From assembly GCF_002008315.2 (NCBI RefSeq), contig NZ_MVDG02000002.1, positions 62,001 through 126,000 of the forward strand: 64,000 nt of DNA. The letters run 5' to 3'. A program made the position numbers and the translations under genes. Positions within the stretch are counted from its first letter, which is position 1; each line of letters begins with the position of its first letter. Under the pieces are notes generated by a model. The model searched no databases. It was not told the origin of the DNA and saw only the letters and a program-made list of their open reading frames with translations. This DNA is from Arthrobacter sp. KBS0703 (GTDB taxonomy: Bacteria; Actinomycetota; Actinomycetes; Actinomycetales; Micrococcaceae). Below, piece after piece: positions 18,402 to 61,646 of this stretch.

Positions 18402-19886
18402 ATGGATGAAAATTTGGGGAAGTTCATCGACAATTTTGCCCGGCTGGTGGAACTCGCGCAGTCCGGCCAGCACCGGGTCCGTGCGGGAACGCAGCTGCTG
18501 ACGACGCTCACAGACCATCTGGGGATCCCCGCCGAATCACTGTCCGTGGTGGTGGAGGAAATTCCGCCGCACCGGTTCGTGGATGCGGACATCCTGATGG
18601 CCGAGCTGGCCGGTGCGGATGAGGGATTCCAGCTCGTGGGCATCGGCGGCGGTGACCAGCGCCACCACCAGTCACTCAGCGACATGCTGCAGCAATCCCA
18701 GTTCTTCCCGCAGTTCCCGCTGTCCCAGCCCGATTACACCAACCTCGCCGTGGGGCCGGACGAGCAGCGGCAGGCGGTGGCGCTCGGGCTGTGGCTCTTC
18801 AGGCACGGAGGCAGGCCAGTCGCCGTCCTGCAGCGTGACGCCAACCCCCGGTACGGACGGCAGACCGCCTCCCTCGAAGTCCTGGCAGGCGACACCACGA
18901 ACTCCGCCGGCTTCCTGTCCGATTTCCGCAGGCAGATGCAGCACCCCAGTGTCCTGAAGGGCCAGGTCATATCACTGGTCATGGGCGAGTATGGCCCCAG
19001 CGCCGCAGGAGTCACGTTCCATCCCCGGCCGGAGCTGGCTGCCTCTGATGTCATCCTGCCGGACGGCCTGCTGCAAAAGGTGTCGGACCATGCCCTCGGG
19101 ATCGCCGAGCACCGTGAGTCGCTCAGCGAATACGGGCAGCACCTCAAGCGGGGCATCCTGCTCTACGGCAAACCCGGCACGGGCAAGACGCATACCGTGC
19201 GGTACCTGTTGAGCCAGAGTGACGGCGCCACCGCCATCCTCCTGTCCGGCGGATCGCTGGCCAGAATCTCGGAAGCCGCCACCATGGCCAGGGCGCTGCA
19301 GCCGTCCATCGTGGTTCTTGAGGACTGCGACCTGATCGCCGAGGACCGGAGCTTCGGGCACGGGCCGCAGCCGCTGTTGTTCGAAGTGCTGGACGCCATG
19401 GACGGCCTGGACAGCGACGCCGACGTTGCGTTCGTCCTCACCACAAACCGCGTGGACATGCTTGAACGCGCCCTGGCACAGCGTCCCGGCCGTGTGGACC
19501 TTGCCGTGGAGATCCCCCTCCCGGCCGTGGCGGAACGCACCGAACTGGTGAAACTGTATGCCCGCGGGATCCCCTTCAGTCCCTGTCTCTTATACACATC
19601 TAGATGTGTATAAGAGACAGCCGCCGCGCGCACCGAAGGCACCACGGCCTCGTTCGCCCGCGAGCTCGTGCGCCGGGCGGTAGTGGCCGCCGCGTTGGAG
19701 GGCGTGCCCGTCGCCGACGGGCACCTGGGCCAGGCAGTGGACGGGCTGATGGCCGACGGCGAAGCTGTCTCTTATACACATCTAGATGTGTATAAGAGAC
19801 AGCTCCTCGGCAGTGGCCCCGGCGACGGCGACGGTTTCGGCGGGCCAGGCTTCGGCGCGCAAGGCCCCTTCCACCCCGGGGCATGA
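18402..19886 (+). CDS. AAA-family ATPase, interrupted in this assembly by two sequencing adapters
   Basis: A cytosolic protein with an N-terminal region of about 230 residues that I do not recognise, then one AAA module: Walker A GKPGTGKT (about residues 256-263), Walker B IVVLEDCDLIAEDR, sensor 1 FVLTTNRVDM and the arginine-finger region LAQRPGRVDLAVEIPLP. The reading frame stops inside adapter sequence at 19583-19620. The C-terminal lid continues after it in the same frame (TEGTTASFARELVRRAVVAA, 19621-19764) and again after a second adapter (LLGSGPGDGDGF to TGA at 19886). The real gene is therefore one continuous ORF missing a few codons at each junction. Role unknown. Confidence 0.82.
19583..19620. 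other. Nextera mate-pair junction adapter (artefact)
   Basis: CTGTCTCTTATACACATCT followed directly by its reverse complement: two Tn5 mosaic ends back to back. This is the circularisation junction of a mate-pair library, not chromosomal DNA. It splits the AAA ATPase gene. Confidence 0.95.
19765..19802. other. Nextera mate-pair junction adapter (artefact)
   Basis: Second perfect copy of the 38-bp double mosaic end, 182 bases after the first. It is open in the ATPase frame and adds foreign residues (SYTHLDVYKRQ) to the lid domain. Confidence 0.95.
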
Positions 19887-23100: not shown

Positions 23101-23178
23101 CCGGACGGCACGATTGCGTTCACTCCCGATTCACGCGCGCGTTCTCGCCTGTCCAAACGGGCTGGCTAGGTTCGGGCC

Positions 23179-24756
23179 ATGGACATTACGCGCAGAACGC
23201 TCATCACCACCGGCCTTGGTGCCGGACTCGTCATCGCCCTGCCCGGAACCGCAATCGCCGACGAACGGAACTCGGAGGCTAGCCTTCCCACAGACCCTTT
23301 CACCCTGGGCGTGGCCTCCGGCGACCCGTGGCCTGACGGCTTTGTGATTTGGACCCGCCTCGCCCTCAGCCCGCTCGCGGAAGACGGCCGGGGCGGCATG
23401 CCGTCGCGCACCGTCGCCGTGGGCTGGGAAGTGGCCGAAGACCCGGCAATGCGGAAGGTTGTCCGGCGCGGGGTCGAGCAGGCCGTGACGGCAGGCGCCC
23501 ACTCCGTGCATGCCGAGCTGCGCGGACTCAAGCCGGGCCGCGAGTATTTCTACCGTTTCCGTGCCGGCCGCCACATCAGCCCGGTTGGCCGCACACTGAC
23601 AAGCCCGGCCTGGAACGAGACGCCCGCGGCGCTGGCCATGTCCTTCGCCAGCTGCGCCCAGTACGAGCACGGCTATTTCACGGCCTACCGGCGCCTCGCC
23701 GAGGACCAGCCGGACCTCGTGCTGCATCTGGGCGACTACCAGTACGAATACAAGAAGGGCTCCTACGTGACGGCGGGCGGCAACCCCCGCGACCACGAGG
23801 GGCCGGAGACTGTGACGCTCGAGAACTACCGCCAGCGCCACGCGCAGTACAAGGCCGACGCCGACCTTCAGGCCGCGCACGCGGCCGCACCGTGGCTGGT
23901 GGTCTGGGACGACCACGAGGTGGACAACAACTGGGCGGATGAGGTGCCGGAGAACACCGACCCGGCCCAGCTGAATGACACCGCCCCCAACTTCCGCCGG
24001 CGCAGGGCTGCGGCGTTCCAGGCTTATTACGAAAACATGCCCCTGCGCGCTCCCACCAGTCCCGCGGGGGCAGACATGAAGATCTACCGCACCGTGCAGT
24101 GGGGACAGCTGGCGAACTTCCACATGATGGACACCCGCCAGTACCGGGACGACCAGCTGGCCGGCGACGGCTGGCGCAGGAACGTGCAGGAGCGCCTCGC
24201 GGAGAACCGGACTATCACGGGCGCGGAGCAGGAACAGTGGCTGCTGGACGGATTCCGGAAGTCCCGTGCCCGCTGGGATGTCCTGGGCCAGCAGGTGTTC
24301 TTCGCCGAACGCGACCGCAACGCGGCCGCGGACATCGACGACATGTCCATGGACGGCTGGGACGGCTACGCCGCTTCCCGCCGCCGGATCACCCAGGGCT
24401 GGGTGGACGCGAAGGTGAGGAACGCCGTCGTGCTTACCGGCGACGTCCACCGCAACTGGGCCAACAACGTCAAGGTCGACTACAAGAACCCGGGTGCGCC
24501 CGTGGTGGGCTCGGAACTGGTGTGCACTTCCGTCACCTCGACCGGCAACGGAACAGGCTCCGTCACAGACCCGACCATGGCCTGGAACGATCATCTGAAG
24601 TTCTTCAACGATCAGCGCGGGTACGTCAGGACCACCATCACCAAGGACTCGATGACGGCCGACTTCCGGGTGCTGGACTACGTGGCGGCCCCCGGTTCGC
24701 CGGTGAGCACCAAGGCCTCCTTCCAGATCCACGACGGCGTTCCGGGACTGCAGTAG
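23179..24756 (+). CDS. phoD: Alkaline phosphatase D (PhoD), Tat-exported
   Basis: A 525-residue secreted phosphodiesterase/phosphatase that frees phosphate from organic esters. The N-terminus MDITRRTLITTGLGAG is a twin-arginine signal with cleavage near ADE. The PhoD N-domain (TLGVASGDPWPDGFVIWTRL) is followed by the metallophosphatase core: SFASCAQYEHGYFTAYR, HLGDYQYEY, WDDHEVDNNW and VLTGDVHRNW hold the Fe/Ca ligands, including the Cys-containing segment typical of PhoD. A near-perfect terminator follows at 24781. No Pho box was identified. Confidence 0.93.
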   Translation: MDITRRTLITTGLGAGLVIALPGTAIADERNSEASLPTDPFTLGVASGDPWPDGFVIWTRLALSPLAEDGRGGMPSRTVAVGWEVAEDPAMRKVVRRGVEQAVTAGAHSVHAELRGLKPGREYFYRFRAGRHISPVGRTLTSPAWNETPAALAMSFASCAQYEHGYFTAYRRLAEDQPDLVLHLGDYQYEYKKGSYVTAGGNPRDHEGPETVTLENYRQRHAQYKADADLQAAHAAAPWLVVWDDHEVDNNWADEVPENTDPAQLNDTAPNFRRRRAAAFQAYYENMPLRAPTSPAGADMKIYRTVQWGQLANFHMMDTRQYRDDQLAGDGWRRNVQERLAENRTITGAEQEQWLLDGFRKSRARWDVLGQQVFFAERDRNAAADIDDMSMDGWDGYAASRRRITQGWVDAKVRNAVVLTGDVHRNWANNVKVDYKNPGAPVVGSELVCTSVTSTGNGTGSVTDPTMAWNDHLKFFNDQRGYVRTTITKDSMTADFRVLDYVAAPGSPVSTKASFQIHDGVPGLQ

Positions 24757-25025: not shown

Positions 25026-26160
25026 GTGCGTATCAAGAAACTTCTGGGCGCCTTTGCAGTCGTCCTCGCCAGATGTGTATGGGGCAACCGGCTGCGGCAG
25101 CCGGCCCGGCACCGCGGCCCCGTCCGGCAGCGCAGACGCTGCCGGTGCCCTCGTCGGCAGATGTGTATAAGAGACAGCCACGCAGACGTCCGAACGCTGG
25201 ATCGCCGACGGCAAGAACGTCTCCGAGTCCGTAGCCAAGCTCGGCTACAAGGCGGACCTTCAGTACGCCAACGACGACATCCCCACACAGGTCTCGCAGA
25301 TTGAGAACATGCTCACGAAGGGCGCGAAGGCGCTGATCATCGCGGCCATCGACGGCACCACCCTGACGGACGTCCTGGCCAAGGCCAAGGAACAGAACGT
25401 CAAGGTCATCGCGTACGACCGCCTGATCAACGGCACGCCGAACGTCGACTTCTACACCACCTTCGACAACTACACGGTGGGCGTCCAGCAGGCGACGTCC
25501 CTCCTGACCGGGCTGGGCCTCATGGACGCCAGCGGCAAGAAGGTGGACGGCAAGGGCCCGTTCAACGTGGAGCTCTTCGCCGGCAGCCCGGACGACAACA
25601 ACGCGAACTTCTTCTGGACCGGCGCCATGGACACCCTGAAGCCGTTCATGGATGCCGGCACCATCAAGGTGCCCAGCGGCCAGACCAAGTTCGAGCAGGC
25701 AGCCATCCTCCGGTGGCAGGCACCCGTCGCGCAGAAGCGCATGGAGGACATCCTCACCGCCGCCTACAGCTCGGGCAAGAAGCTCGACGGCGTGCTGTCG
25801 CCATATGACGGACTGTCGATCGGCATCATTTCCGCCCTGACCAGCACCGGCGGCTATTCCAAGGGCAGCCTGCCGGTCGTCACCGGCCAAGACGCGGAGA
25901 AGGGCTCCGTGAAGTCCATCATCGCCGGGGAACAGTACTCCACCATCTTCAAGGACACCCGCAAGCTGGGCGAGCAGGCAGTGAAGATGGTCGACGCGGT
26001 CCTCAAGGGCCAGCAGCCCGAAACCAACGACACCGAAACCTACAACAACAAGGTCAAGGTAGTTCCCGCGTTCCTGCTGAAGTCCGTGATCATCACCAAG
26101 GACAACTACAAGCCGGAGCTCGTTGACTCCGGCTACTACACGGAGGCCGACATCAAGTAG
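25026..26160 (+). CDS. chvE: Multiple-monosaccharide ABC transporter substrate-binding lipoprotein, damaged by adapter
   Basis: ATG 25026 starts a signal peptide ([15 protein letters not shown]). After an adapter fragment, the lipobox region [19 protein letters not shown] continues in another frame at about 25085-25150. The mature domain resumes at 25180 ([20 protein letters not shown]) and runs intact to 26160: [62 protein letters not shown]. It is a type-I periplasmic binding fold for pentoses or hexoses, docking with MmsA/MmsB downstream. The break lies wholly within adapter sequence and the joints lack only a few codons. The real gene is surely intact, at about 370-380 residues. Confidence 0.85.
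25071..25177. other. Partial Nextera adapter sequence (artefact) inside chvE
   Basis: 25071-25080 is the first ten bases of a Tn5 mosaic end. 25151-25177 reads TCGTCGGCAG joined to ATGTGTATAAGAGACAG, the Nextera read-1 adapter with six bases collapsed at a CAG repeat. The 70 bases between are genuine chvE sequence. Confidence 0.9.
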
Positions 26161-49928: not shown

Positions 49929-52130
49929 TCAGAGGGACCCGGTGGTGAATGCCCAGCTGGAGGACGCCAGACTGTTCCCTGCGAGGTCCCGGATGGCCGC
50001 TGTGCCGCCGGTGACGGTCACGGTGTAACCGGTCCTGGCGGCCAGCGTCGCGGTGGGGTCGAGGATCCACTGGTTGGTGGTGCCGACGCGTGACACGGTG
50101 GCGGCTATCTTCGCGCCGGTGGCCGTGGCCTTCAGGACGACGGTGCCTGTACCTGCGCCCTGGATCGCTTCGCTGAATGTCACCGCCACGTTGTTCGCGC
50201 GCCTCACCAGGGTGGCCCCCGGCCGCGGCGTCATGGCCGTGATGACCGGGGCCGGCCCGCTGGTGAACGTCCAGCTCGATGTGGCCAGCGGGGTTCCTGC
50301 GGCGTCGCGGACGGCAGCCGCTCCGCCGGTCAGGGTGGCGGTGTACTTGGTGTCGTTGGCGAGGTTGGCCGCCGGATTGAGGGTGGCCGTCCGGGTGGTG
50401 GCGTTGTAGCTGACCGCCGCGGGGACCGCGGCACCGCCGGGGCCCCGCAGGAGGAACGTGCCGGCGTCCAGGCCCTGGACTGCGCTGTTGAAGGTGGCGG
50501 TGATGTTGCTCCCTGCGGCCACGCCGGTGGCGTTCGCGCCGGTGTCTCTTATACACATCTAGATGTGTATAAGAGACAGGTCACGGTGGGGGCCGCCGCC
50601 GTGGTGAAGCTCCAGCCCGTCGTGACCAGCGGCGTGCCCGTGGTGTCACGGATGGCTGCCGTCCCGCCCGTCAGTGTCGCCGCGTATTTCTGGGATGCGG
50701 CCAGGAGGGACGACGGCTTCAGCGTCGCGGTCCGCGTTGCCGCGTCGTAGGTGACGGCGGCCGGGACGGCGGTTCCGGCGGCGTTCTTCAGGACGAAGGT
50801 GGAACCGCTGACCCCTTGGACGTTTCTGCTGAACGTGGCGGACACGCTGCCGGCCACTGCGGCGCCTGCGGCATTGGCGGCCGGGCTGTTGCCCGTTACC
50901 ACCGGCGCGGTGAGGATTCCCGCGGACGGATCCGAAAACAGCAGCCGGTTCGGGGTGCCTGCACCGGAGGCCGTGACCACGCCGGGGGTGGAAGCGGAGA
51001 GCAGCTTAGACGCCACGGCAGCGGGCGTGAGCTCTGGCGACCTCGACAGCACCGCGGCAGCGGCGCCGGCCACATGCGGAGTCGCCATGGACGTTCCGCT
51101 CATGGAGGCAGTCGCCGTCGTCGAAGCGGAGCTGGCGGAGGTGATGCCCACGCCGGGAGCGTACAGGTCAACGCAGGTTCCGAAGTTGGAAAACGACGCC
51201 TGCCTGTCAGAGGAGTCGCTCGCGGCGACGGTCAGTGCGTCCGGCACCCGGGCCGGGGAACTGTTGCACGCGTCGGCGGCAGCGTTTCCGGCGGCGACGA
51301 CTGTGGTGACGCCGTCGTTGACGAGGCCCTGCACGGCAGCGTCCACCGCCGCGCTGGTGACGCTGCCGAGGCTCAGGTTTGCGACGGCCGGCGTCCCCGC
51401 CTGGTGCTGCGAGGCCACCCACTCCAGGCCTGCCACCACGTCCGAGTTGAAGCCCGAGCCGGTGCAGTCCAGGACGCGCACAGGAACAATGGTGGCCGCC
51501 TTGGCCACGCCGTAGGTCTTGCCGGCAATGGTTCCGGCGACATGCGTGCCGTGGCCGTTGCAGTCGCCCGTTCCCAGGCCGTCCGACACGGCAGTCCATC
51601 CTGCGGCAACGCGGCCGCCGAATTCCGTGTGGGCAGCCAGCACGCCGGAGTCTGTCTCTTATACACATCTAGATGTGTATAAGAGACACCCCGCCCCCCG
51701 ACGACGCCGAGGTGAAGGAGCCGGACAGCGGCAACGCGCGCTGGTCGATGCGGTCCAGTCCCCACGGCGCGGGCTGCTGGGTTTCCGCGGCTGTCACCCG
51801 CGCATCGATCTCGACGGCGGCCACCCGCGCCGAGCGCTTCAGCTCTGCAGCCTGGGCCGGCGTCGCCGTCACCACCGCACCGCGCAGCGCCTTGGAGAAC
51901 GTGCGGCCGACGGCGATGTTCCGGGAACGCAGGCTACTCACCTCGGACGGAACATCAGTGCCGGCGGCGTACCGCACCAGGTACCGGGCAGTTGCGCCGC
52001 CGGGTGCTGCTGCTTCGGAGTTCGTGGCGGCCGGCGATGCGGCGCCGGCCGCCACTCCGGCGGAGGTGGCGGCCAGGGCGGTCAGCAGCAGCGATGCCAG
52101 TGCGGGACGGAGAGCGGACAGGGCACGAAT
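49929..52130 (-). CDS. Secreted subtilisin-family (S8) protease with Ig-like repeats, interrupted by two adapters
   Basis: Three segments form one gene. 52130-51689: signal peptide (ALRPALASLLLTALAATSAG), then an I9-type propeptide (ARYLVRYAAGTDVPSEV). 51651-50580: catalytic domain with His in NGHGTHVAGTIAG and Ser in SGTSMATPHVAGAAAAVLS, Asn in VVAAGNAAAD, then an Ig-like repeat. 50542-49929: two further Ig-like (Big/SbsA-type) repeats with recurring TATLTGGTAAIRD. The catalytic-Asp motif is cut at the second junction: the reading resumes at (?)AC-TCC-GGC, consistent with Asp-Ser-Gly-Val. No ATG/GTG lies near the signal; ATT 52130 is eight bases after AAGGA and is the best-placed start. The protein is about 730 residues. 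Confidence 0.8.
50543..50579. other. Nextera mate-pair junction adapter (artefact)
   Basis: Double Tn5 mosaic end lacking only its first C, inserted between the first and second Ig-like repeats of the protease gene. Confidence 0.95.
51652..51688. other. Nextera mate-pair junction adapter (artefact)
   Basis: Double Tn5 mosaic end lacking its last base, inserted between propeptide and catalytic domain of the protease gene, at the catalytic-Asp motif. Confidence 0.95.
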
Positions 52131-58610: not shown

Positions 58611-58808
58611 CCGTTTGCCCGCTTCCGTTCGTCCGGTTCCGTGCGTGCGGCGCCGACAGTTCTGCCGTTGTCCCTGGGGGCGCGTCATGATGACGAAATC
58701 TTCGATGTGAGCCGCTTCACACTGTAGCCTCGTGACAAATGTAGCCTAATCAACAACTTGTGATGCCCTCTTGGCAACACAGGATGGATCAGCCAGAGGG
58801 AGACCAGT

Positions 58809-60461
58809 GTGAAAAATGTTCAGCAAAAGGCCAAAGCCGGCCGAACCGGCCGCGTCAAGGTGACCGAGGTGGAAGCGTTCGGCATCGAACAAATTCCGGA
58901 GAAGGACCGGAACGCAAGCCCCTTTGACCTGTTCAGGGTCTCGTTCGGCGGCGCTAACACGTTTTCCACAGCGTTCCTCGGAGCGTTCCCCATCCTCTTC
59001 GGCCTCTCGTTCTGGCAGGGTCTGGCAGCGACAGTCCTCGGCCTGGTGGTGGGCGCGCTCCTGCTGGCGCCGATGGCCGTCTTCGGACCCACGAACGGCA
59101 CGAACAACGCGGTATCGTCCTCGGCCCATCTGGGCGTCCACGGCCGGGTCGTCGGCTCGTTCCTTTCGCTCCTGACCGCCACGGCCTTCTTCTCCATCTC
59201 GGTATGGAGCTCCGGCGACGCGCTGGTGGGAGGCCTTAACCGCCTGGTTGGCCTGCCCCAGGACATGGGCTCCTTTGCCGTGGCCTACGGGCTCTTCGGA
59301 GTTCTGGTGCTGGCCGTCTGCATCTACGGGTTCCGGTTCATGCTGCTCGTGAACAAGATCGCGGTAACGGCGGCCACCCTTCTGTTCGTGATCGGATACA
59401 TCGCGTTCGCAGGGGACCTGGACCTGAACTTTGCCGGCTCCTTCGGGGTGGGCCTGGACGGCCTCGGCGTAGCCGGTTTCATTCCTGCCTTCATCGGCGC
59501 CGCCCTCATCGTGATGTCCAACCCGATTTCCTTTGGAGCCTTCCTCGGCGACTGGGCTCGGTACATTCCCACGAACAAGCCCAAGCGCAAGGTCATGGGT
59601 GCCGCCCTCCTCGCGCAGCTGGCCACCCTTGTGCCGTTTGTCTTCGGGCTGGCGACGGCGTCCATCATCGCCACCAAGGCACCGGAGTTCATGGATCCGG
59701 CGGCCCCCAACTATGTGGGCGGGCTCCTGGCTGTGTCCCCCTCCTGGTACTTCGTCCCGCTCTGCGCGATCGCCCTGATCGGCGGCATGTCCACGGGCGC
59801 CTCCTCGCTGTACGGAACCGGACTGGATTTCAGCAGTGTCTTCCCGCGCTTTAACCGCGTGCAGGCCACTGTGTTCATCGGCGTACTCGCCATCGCGTTC
59901 ATATTCGTGGGCCGCTTCGCCTTCAACCTCGTCCAGAGCATCTCCACCTTCGCCACGCTGATTGTCACGTGCACGGCCCCCTGGATGGTGGTGATGATCA
60001 TCGGCTTCATTACCCGCCGGGGCTGGTACGACGCCGACGCCCTGCAGGTGTTCAACCGCCGCCAAACAGGCGGCCGCTACTGGTTCAATCATGGCTGGAA
60101 CCTGCGTGGAATGCTGGCGTGGCTGCTCAGCGCCGCGGCAGGCCTGTGCCTGGTCAATATGCCGGGACAGTTCCAGGGCCCGCTGGGCAACCTCGCCGGC
60201 GGCGTGGATATCAGCCTCCCGGCCTCCCTCGTCCTTGCCGCGGTGCTCTACGTGGGGATGCTGTGGATCTTCCCCGAACCCCGCGCCGTGTTTCCGGAGG
60301 CCGGTCCGCGCTGGATTCCCAGCCGGAACGTTGCCGTGCCGCCGGTGATGGACAGCGCCGGGCGCGCCGTTGCGCCGGGGCAGCCGGACCCGGGACTGCA
60401 GGAGCAGCCGACGCCGGCGGAGGACGACCGGGCGCTTACGAGCTCGGCGGTCCGGCCGTGA
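58809..60461 (+). CDS. NCS1 family purine/cytosine permease
   Basis: A 550-residue transporter with about 12 helices. The NCS1 N-terminal signature (ASPFDLFRVSFGGANTFSTA), MSNPISFGAFLGDWARYIP in the middle and the hydrophilic 60-residue tail are typical. Substrates of the family are cytosine, purines, hydantoin or thiamin precursors. Starts at GTG 58809 after GGGAGA. The cyclase-fusion gene overlaps its stop (GTGA), so the transported compound may be the cyclase's substrate. Confidence 0.88.
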   Translation: MKNVQQKAKAGRTGRVKVTEVEAFGIEQIPEKDRNASPFDLFRVSFGGANTFSTAFLGAFPILFGLSFWQGLAATVLGLVVGALLLAPMAVFGPTNGTNNAVSSSAHLGVHGRVVGSFLSLLTATAFFSISVWSSGDALVGGLNRLVGLPQDMGSFAVAYGLFGVLVLAVCIYGFRFMLLVNKIAVTAATLLFVIGYIAFAGDLDLNFAGSFGVGLDGLGVAGFIPAFIGAALIVMSNPISFGAFLGDWARYIPTNKPKRKVMGAALLAQLATLVPFVFGLATASIIATKAPEFMDPAAPNYVGGLLAVSPSWYFVPLCAIALIGGMSTGASSLYGTGLDFSSVFPRFNRVQATVFIGVLAIAFIFVGRFAFNLVQSISTFATLIVTCTAPWMVVMIIGFITRRGWYDADALQVFNRRQTGGRYWFNHGWNLRGMLAWLLSAAAGLCLVNMPGQFQGPLGNLAGGVDISLPASLVLAAVLYVGMLWIFPEPRAVFPEAGPRWIPSRNVAVPPVMDSAGRAVAPGQPDPGLQEQPTPAEDDRALTSSAVRP

Positions 60462-61633
60462 CATGGATGGATCTGAGCGTCCCGCTCCGGACAGGCATGC
60501 CCGTCTATCCCGGCGACCCGGAAGTGCGGATCTCGCCGGCGCTGACAGCCGACGGCGACGGTGCCAACGTGTTGTCCCTCGCCATCGGCTCCCACTCGGG
60601 GACGCATGTTGACGCGCCGTTCCACGTCCGGAATTCGCTGGCGGCACTCGACGCGCTGCCGCCGGCGCAGTTCAGCGGGCCCGTGGAGCTGATTGACGTG
60701 CGTAGCGCCGGTGCCGGCGGCGCCATCACCGCGGAACACCTGTCCGGGCTCGCGCCGGCCACGGCCGGGAATGACCGGCCCGGTCAGCCGGAGAGCATCC
60801 TGCTGCTCCGGACGGGGTTCGCAGAGCACTGGGGCTCCCCCGCCTACCTGGACCACCCGTGGCTCGACGCCTCCGCCGCCCAGCTGATCGTGGACCGCGG
60901 CTACCGAGCCGTCGGAGTGGATGCCCTGAGCGTGGACAGAACCGGGAGCCTCGCCGAAGACCAGGCCTTTCCGGCCCATCACATCCTCGCCGGCAACGGT
61001 TGCGTCATCGCCGAGAACCTCACCGGGCTGGACCAGGTCCAGCGGGCGCTGGCCAGCGGCACCGGCGTCGAGGTTTTCCTCTTCCCGCTCAGCATCCCCG
61101 ACGCCGACGGGGCACCGGTCCGGGCCATGGCGCGGACCGGACCGGCCAGCTTCGGGCACGAAGCGCCGTCCCGGCAGCCCGGTGCGCCGTCCCGGCAGCC
61201 GGAGAGCCGGGACCTGAGCCGGGCGGAGGTCCAGGAGGCCGCGGACGGGCTGATCGCAGCCTTCGCCGCGACGGACACGGAACGCTACTTCGCCGCCTTC
61301 AGCCCGTCAGCCACGTTCATTTTCCATCCCGAGCCGGAGGCACTGGGTTCCCGGAGCGAGTACCGGCAACTTTGGGACATGTGGGTCGGCTCGGGGTGGA
61401 AGGTGCTCGATTGCCGCAGCAGCGAGCAGAACATCCAGTTGCTTGGCTCCGCTGCCGTCTTCACGCACCGGGTGGCCACGGTGGTCCGGACTGGCCCGGA
61501 CGGCAGCACCCTGTCCACTGACGAACGGGAGACCATTGTGTTCACCCGGACCGGCGGCGGCGAGGTGGTTGCCGTCCACGAGCACCTCTCGGCAGTTCCG
61601 GGCCCTTCCGCGGACCCGGCCCTGCCGGGATAG
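60458..61633 (+). CDS. Cyclase family (kynurenine-formamidase-like) fused to a SnoaL/NTF2-like domain
   Basis: A 391-residue two-domain protein. Residues about 1-215 are a metal-dependent cyclase/amidohydrolase: DLSVPLRTGMPVYPGD and the metal motif HSGTHVDAPFH (HxGxHxDxPxH) are complete, with VFLFPLSIPDADGAPVRAMA closing the fold. A short linker with an internal duplication (PSRQPGAPSRQPES) leads to a C-terminal NTF2-like domain (LIAAFAATDTERYFAAFSPS to VVAVHEHLSAV). GTG 60458 overlaps the permease stop by four bases. Substrate unknown; hydrolysis of a cyclic amide imported by the NCS1 permease is a fair inference. Confidence 0.82.
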   Translation: MTWMDLSVPLRTGMPVYPGDPEVRISPALTADGDGANVLSLAIGSHSGTHVDAPFHVRNSLAALDALPPAQFSGPVELIDVRSAGAGGAITAEHLSGLAPATAGNDRPGQPESILLLRTGFAEHWGSPAYLDHPWLDASAAQLIVDRGYRAVGVDALSVDRTGSLAEDQAFPAHHILAGNGCVIAENLTGLDQVQRALASGTGVEVFLFPLSIPDADGAPVRAMARTGPASFGHEAPSRQPGAPSRQPESRDLSRAEVQEAADGLIAAFAATDTERYFAAFSPSATFIFHPEPEALGSRSEYRQLWDMWVGSGWKVLDCRSSEQNIQLLGSAAVFTHRVATVVRTGPDGSTLSTDERETIVFTRTGGGEVVAVHEHLSAVPGPSADPALPG

Positions 61634-61646
61634 CCGCCGGGAACGC

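Follow-up and report, generated by a model that had tools for sequence, protein, structure and literature searches.

Transposon Tn5 is used in vitro with a synthetic mosaic end that supplanted the less active wild-type ends, as stated in a passage of one paper that also gives the oligo letters (PMC4248319); in a passage of another, the mosaic end is credited to Zhou et al. 1998 (PMC2229646). The NextClip paper describes, in its account of the junction, how tagmented fragments are circularised, which leaves two 19-bp junction adaptors joined into 38 bases that are to be trimmed (PMC3928519). A further paper prints, as the sequence of a circularisation adapter, exactly the 38 letters reported below (PMC7357533).

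Here, we analyzed a window of 64,000 nucleotides from the assembly of Arthrobacter sp. KBS0703 and conclude that the palindromes in it are almost certainly untrimmed Nextera mate-pair junction adapters, an artefact of the assembly and not biology. Two identical 38-bp palindromes lie at 19583-19620 and 19765-19802, exactly where the original prediction had placed them. Each consists of the 19-mer CTGTCTCTTATACACATCT followed by its own reverse complement, with the 19-mers exact in both orientations, and the chance expectation of 19-mer or palindrome is zero (100 dinucleotide shuffles of the window, three mismatches allowed). The 19-mer is the synthetic Tn5 mosaic end, in agreement with the oligo printed in the cited passage of PMC4248319. 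The head-to-head pair, of which the assembly holds 251 exact copies, has the length of two 19-bp ends described in the corresponding part of PMC3928519 and the letters given in that of PMC7357533, and the identification as Nextera mate-pair junction and Tn5 mosaic end is thereby borne out. The artefact is, however, not confined to the ATPase gene in which it had been noticed. It recurs at about 430 sites in the assembly, and the window itself contains three more full or half copies and a stub:

18402..19886, + strand: AAA ATPase gene, split in the assembly into ORF 18402-19613 (403 aa) and ORF 19668-19886 (72 aa)
19583..19620, no strand assigned: 38-bp junction adapter; replaces 17 real bases and carries a stop in the frame of the ATPase gene
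19765..19802, no strand assigned: 38-bp junction adapter; replaces 14 real bases, is open in the frame of the ATPase gene and codes for VSYTHLDVYKRQ
25071..25080, + strand: truncated adapter stub of 10 bases; replaces roughly 9 real bases (net change +1) close to the start of the periplasmic sugar-binding protein gene
25159..25177, - strand: half junction of 19 bp; replaces 10 real bases in the periplasmic sugar-binding protein gene
50542..50579, no strand assigned: 38-bp junction adapter with the outer C reading G; replaces 12 bases in the subtilase gene (- strand)
51652..51689, no strand assigned: 38-bp junction adapter with the outer G reading C; replaces 19 bases of this subtilase gene

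The closest relatives by the ATPase gene, identified in a search of 206 genus genomes, are G171 (94% identical DNA) and G105 (92%), and the alignment to each covers most of the window. In a scan for shorter pieces, the stub at 25071-25080 was the sole additional run of at least nine adapter bases in the window. Both relatives have other letters there, and runs of at least nine adapter bases were absent from their corresponding stretches of 64-65 kb.

The ATPase (match to PF00004, E 3e-17) illustrates how the adapter affects gene calls. ORF 18402-19613 (+ strand) ends in adapter-coded residues (...CLLYTSRCV) and ORF 19668-19886 (+ strand) is adapter-coded inside; the false peptide SYTHLDVYKRQ, which had been anticipated, occurs in the latter and in two ORFs of the - strand (19163-19645 and 19600-19884). 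Relatives have sequence without the palindrome across the site, as a comparison suggested by the original prediction revealed, and the ortholog in G171, the closest of them, is a single unbroken frame of 475 codons, in support of a gene that is whole in nature. The proposal that the frame continues after each palindrome was right in part. The frame is kept beyond both, because 38-17=21 and 38-14=24 are multiples of three, but it meets a stop inside the first palindrome. As 17 and 14 bases were replaced, cutting out either palindrome would shift the frame. Less survives of the claim that a conserved AAA lid follows each palindrome. On the relative's protein, the palindromes correspond to positions near residues 393 and 447. 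AAA family matches to this protein, all of which score below the curated cut-offs, extend no further than residue 444, and no Pfam lid domain was found at E values up to 0.1. A lid-like segment, with family matches below cut-off, could thus lie only between the palindromes, while a short glycine-rich tail is all that follows the second.

The other affected genes show the same pattern. One 774-aa ORF of G171 spans both subtilase sites, whereas the gene in the window is broken at both and its fragment matches PF00082 and PF13205. Downstream of 25159-25177, the periplasmic sugar-binding protein is reduced to a 283-aa ORF (PF13407), as compared to a 374-aa ORF that spans the site in G171. All three genes, for the ATPase, the sugar-binding protein, and the subtilase, are presumably intact in the organism itself, as in the relative. 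The letters TCGTCGGC immediately ahead of 25159 might be taken for a remnant of a Nextera i5 tail but were dismissed as coincidence: the relatives' differences there resemble, by eye, those of third codon positions, and no i5 tail adjoins any mosaic end in the genome. Elsewhere in the window, a segment of about 3 kb (58616-61641) is unmatched in the syntenic regions of both G171 and G105; by eye, its ORFs resemble a permease, a cyclase-like protein, and a SnoaL-like domain. The front part of a PhoD phosphatase gene (23179-24756, PF09423) is for the most part unaligned in G171 but aligned in G105 (23124-24207).

Comparison with relatives shows what the adapter did to the underlying sequence. 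At 19583-19620, 17 bases are missing relative to both G171 and G105. Against 18 other loci, in alignment coordinates, the loss is 17 in 15 of them and 14 in three (L041, L042, and L047), which may differ from the other loci by a codon. At 19765-19802, 14 bases are missing relative to G171 and to L034, the only one of the 18 loci with its right flank aligned beside this palindrome. The gap of 424 (111 unaligned bases) relative to G105 is read as divergence of the tail. The losses relative to both G171 and G105 amount to 10 bases at 25159, 12 at 50542, and 19 at 51652.

A wider sample comprised 48 sites (41 palindromes and seven halves), 32 of them on contig C1 (30 loci) and 16 on contig C2 (186 kb, with a 2-kb hole). 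Both flanks aligned to stretches of G171 at 32 sites, i.e., 27 palindromes and five halves; the remaining 16, with no aligned pair in the stretches fetched, were dropped. Edges were considered clean with at most 8 and at most 10 unaligned bases, and a further filter on gap size (1 to 59) excluded a single palindrome with clean edges, C1:106697, which has a gap of 265 and a left identity of 75%. Clean edges were thus obtained for 20 palindromes: C1:106697 lacks 265 bases, and the other 19 lack between 7 and 40 each (median 18; individual losses of 7, 9, 12, 14, 15, 15, 16, 17, 17, 18, 19, 20, 21, 23, 24, 27, 30, 35, and 40). None of the 20 is a pure insertion, and no clean site has a gap of zero or less. 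Gaps at the other seven aligned palindromes, with unaligned edges, are 1, 10, 13, 38, 44, -29, and -29, and those at the five aligned halves are 8, 10, 234, -5, and -3628. The 548,568 bases fetched from G171 contain no exact mosaic end. By these alignments, the adapter stands in place of real sequence and is a replacement, not an insertion; given the short losses, excising a palindrome would not restore the gene.

Throughout the assembly (4,860,540 bases in 37 contigs), the exact 19-mer occurs 342 times in forward and 339 times in reverse orientation, and a reversed control pattern does not match at all. Counting each exact 38-mer once, this yields 342 + 339 - 251 = 430 sites, or about one per 11 kb, a figure that takes in exact 19-mers only. 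The sites are clustered, with 16 of 99 neighbour distances below 500 bases as compared to 3.8 expected (first 100 places listed on C1). One sampled palindrome (C2:43570-43607, locus L214) differs from the adapter at one internal base, which is what a sequencing error within it would produce. Beyond this genome, the 38-mer was found in 2 of 396 phylum genomes (own included), in 5 of 72,556 plasmid records (NZ_CP032357.1, NZ_MT039157.1, NZ_KY978628.1, NZ_MF589339.1, and NZ_MF918372.1), and in seven viral-contig stretches; it was absent from 50,697 phage records and 20,395 E. coli records. On NZ_MT039157.1, it sits at the extreme end of the record. A species-representative collection contains at least 120 stretches with the exact 38-mer, 80 of which belong to 17 named organisms from several phyla.

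Ordinary paired-end Nextera adapters, left by read-through and concatenated at contig ends, might be put forward as an alternative source, as the mosaic end is used in both kits and single mosaic ends are present at contig starts in other genus genomes. However, no mosaic end of this genome is flanked by an i7 or i5 tail, with two mismatches allowed, so that a mate-pair library fits better. The 251 exact head-to-head 38-mers and one backward jump of 3.6 kb likewise point to mate-pair, and we consider a paired-end origin very unlikely. A natural dispersed palindromic repeat or a mobile element related to Tn5/IS50 would be in keeping with some 430 dispersed, near-identical copies in one genome, but is extremely improbable on several grounds. 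The sequence is that of the in-vitro mosaic end, while the wild-type outside and inside ends have no match within the window at up to two mismatches. The sampled palindromes are exact in 33 of 41 cases, with seven changed at the outer base and one inside (the search pattern allowed few changes). Only 6 of 198 genus genomes, own included, contain the 19-mer; the other five have 1 to 14 copies each, and 9 of these 34 places are at base 1 of a contig. The same 38-mer appears in several phyla among the matches listed. Moreover, bases are lost and not duplicated at the clean sites, with no 9-bp target-site duplication, and the flanks of the 20 clean palindromes are at least seven bases apart in G171. 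Mini-Tn5 type elements carry mosaic ends, as real transposon insertions in an engineered strain would, but the 251 exact copies here consist of two abutting ends without cargo, and bases have been lost at positions that should show a 9-bp duplication, which makes this explanation even more improbable, to the point of being negligible.

In the preparation of a Nextera mate-pair library, Tn5 cuts the DNA and adds a 19-bp mosaic end to each fragment end, and circularisation joins both ends into the 38-bp palindrome (PMC3928519). Such a junction is recognizable at the start of C2, where C2:1-981 is a 99.5% copy of C2:3616-4592 and is joined by a half junction to C2:1001 (locus L212). The resulting backward jump of about 3.6 kb at C2:982 is as a circularised fragment gives; on this sequence evidence, the start of C2 is a chimeric contig end and the fragment extended from approximately C2:1001 to 4592. 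Genuine mate-pair junctions jump back by kilobases in this way, whereas the 20 clean palindromes join forward neighbours and thus cannot be simple junction reads. Where GC-rich gaps were poorly covered, contig ends may, we infer, have been extended by reads running into the junction, and an assembly or gap-closing step may then have fused each contig with its true neighbour over the shared 38-mer, with the uncovered bases being lost. This fusion of contig ends across the palindrome is a guess. GC content within 100 bases of 19 clean sites is 0.724, as compared to 0.663 in 2000 random controls, and the 274,570 bases of this genome that were examined, a total that includes overlapping loci, are free of N, as after gap closing. 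Hairpins were also considered as the cause of the gaps. Folding of the 70-mers around these sites is slightly more favourable than that of random 70-mers (p 0.018) but does not exceed that of GC-matched ones (mean percentile 0.53), and GC content is therefore preferred. Two of the seven viral-contig stretches stop at a contig end 6 and 9 bases beyond the palindrome and might resemble contigs before fusion.

Gene calls, pseudogene counts, and protein families derived from this assembly are unreliable near the approximately 430 sites, a problem that its completeness score of 99.99% does not reveal. Masking or deleting the adapter leaves short deletions, so re-assembly from trimmed reads is needed, and stubs as short as that at 25071-25080 slip past a screen for the full adapter. 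Whether mate-pair scars that overwrite short GC-rich stretches at hundreds of places are a recurrent class of error, common to other public assemblies, is in our judgement an even bet, with the overwriting itself demonstrated in this one genome. If so, adapter-coded peptides and false gene breaks pass into protein databases. Among publications on adapters in assemblies, no title concerned such a replacement, on the basis of titles and the starts of abstracts, which is no proof of absence.

Other public assemblies share the exact 38-mer, among the matches listed, e.g., those of Enterococcus sp. 10A9_DIV0425, Collinsella ihumii GD8, and Scytonema tolypothrichoides VB-61278, and one such stretch (L101) has four copies within about 500 bases. 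The likeness to the junction adaptor as described in the NextClip passage (PMC3928519) lies in the two 19-bp ends joined into 38 bases, for which single 19-bp and degenerate copies are also expected, and in the one kilobase-scale fragment at C2:982 that is joined from its end to its own start. In contrast to that adaptor, the clean palindromes of this assembly link forward neighbours over lost bases, without a kilobase backward jump, which suggests that adjoining contigs must have been fused at a later stage of the assembly.
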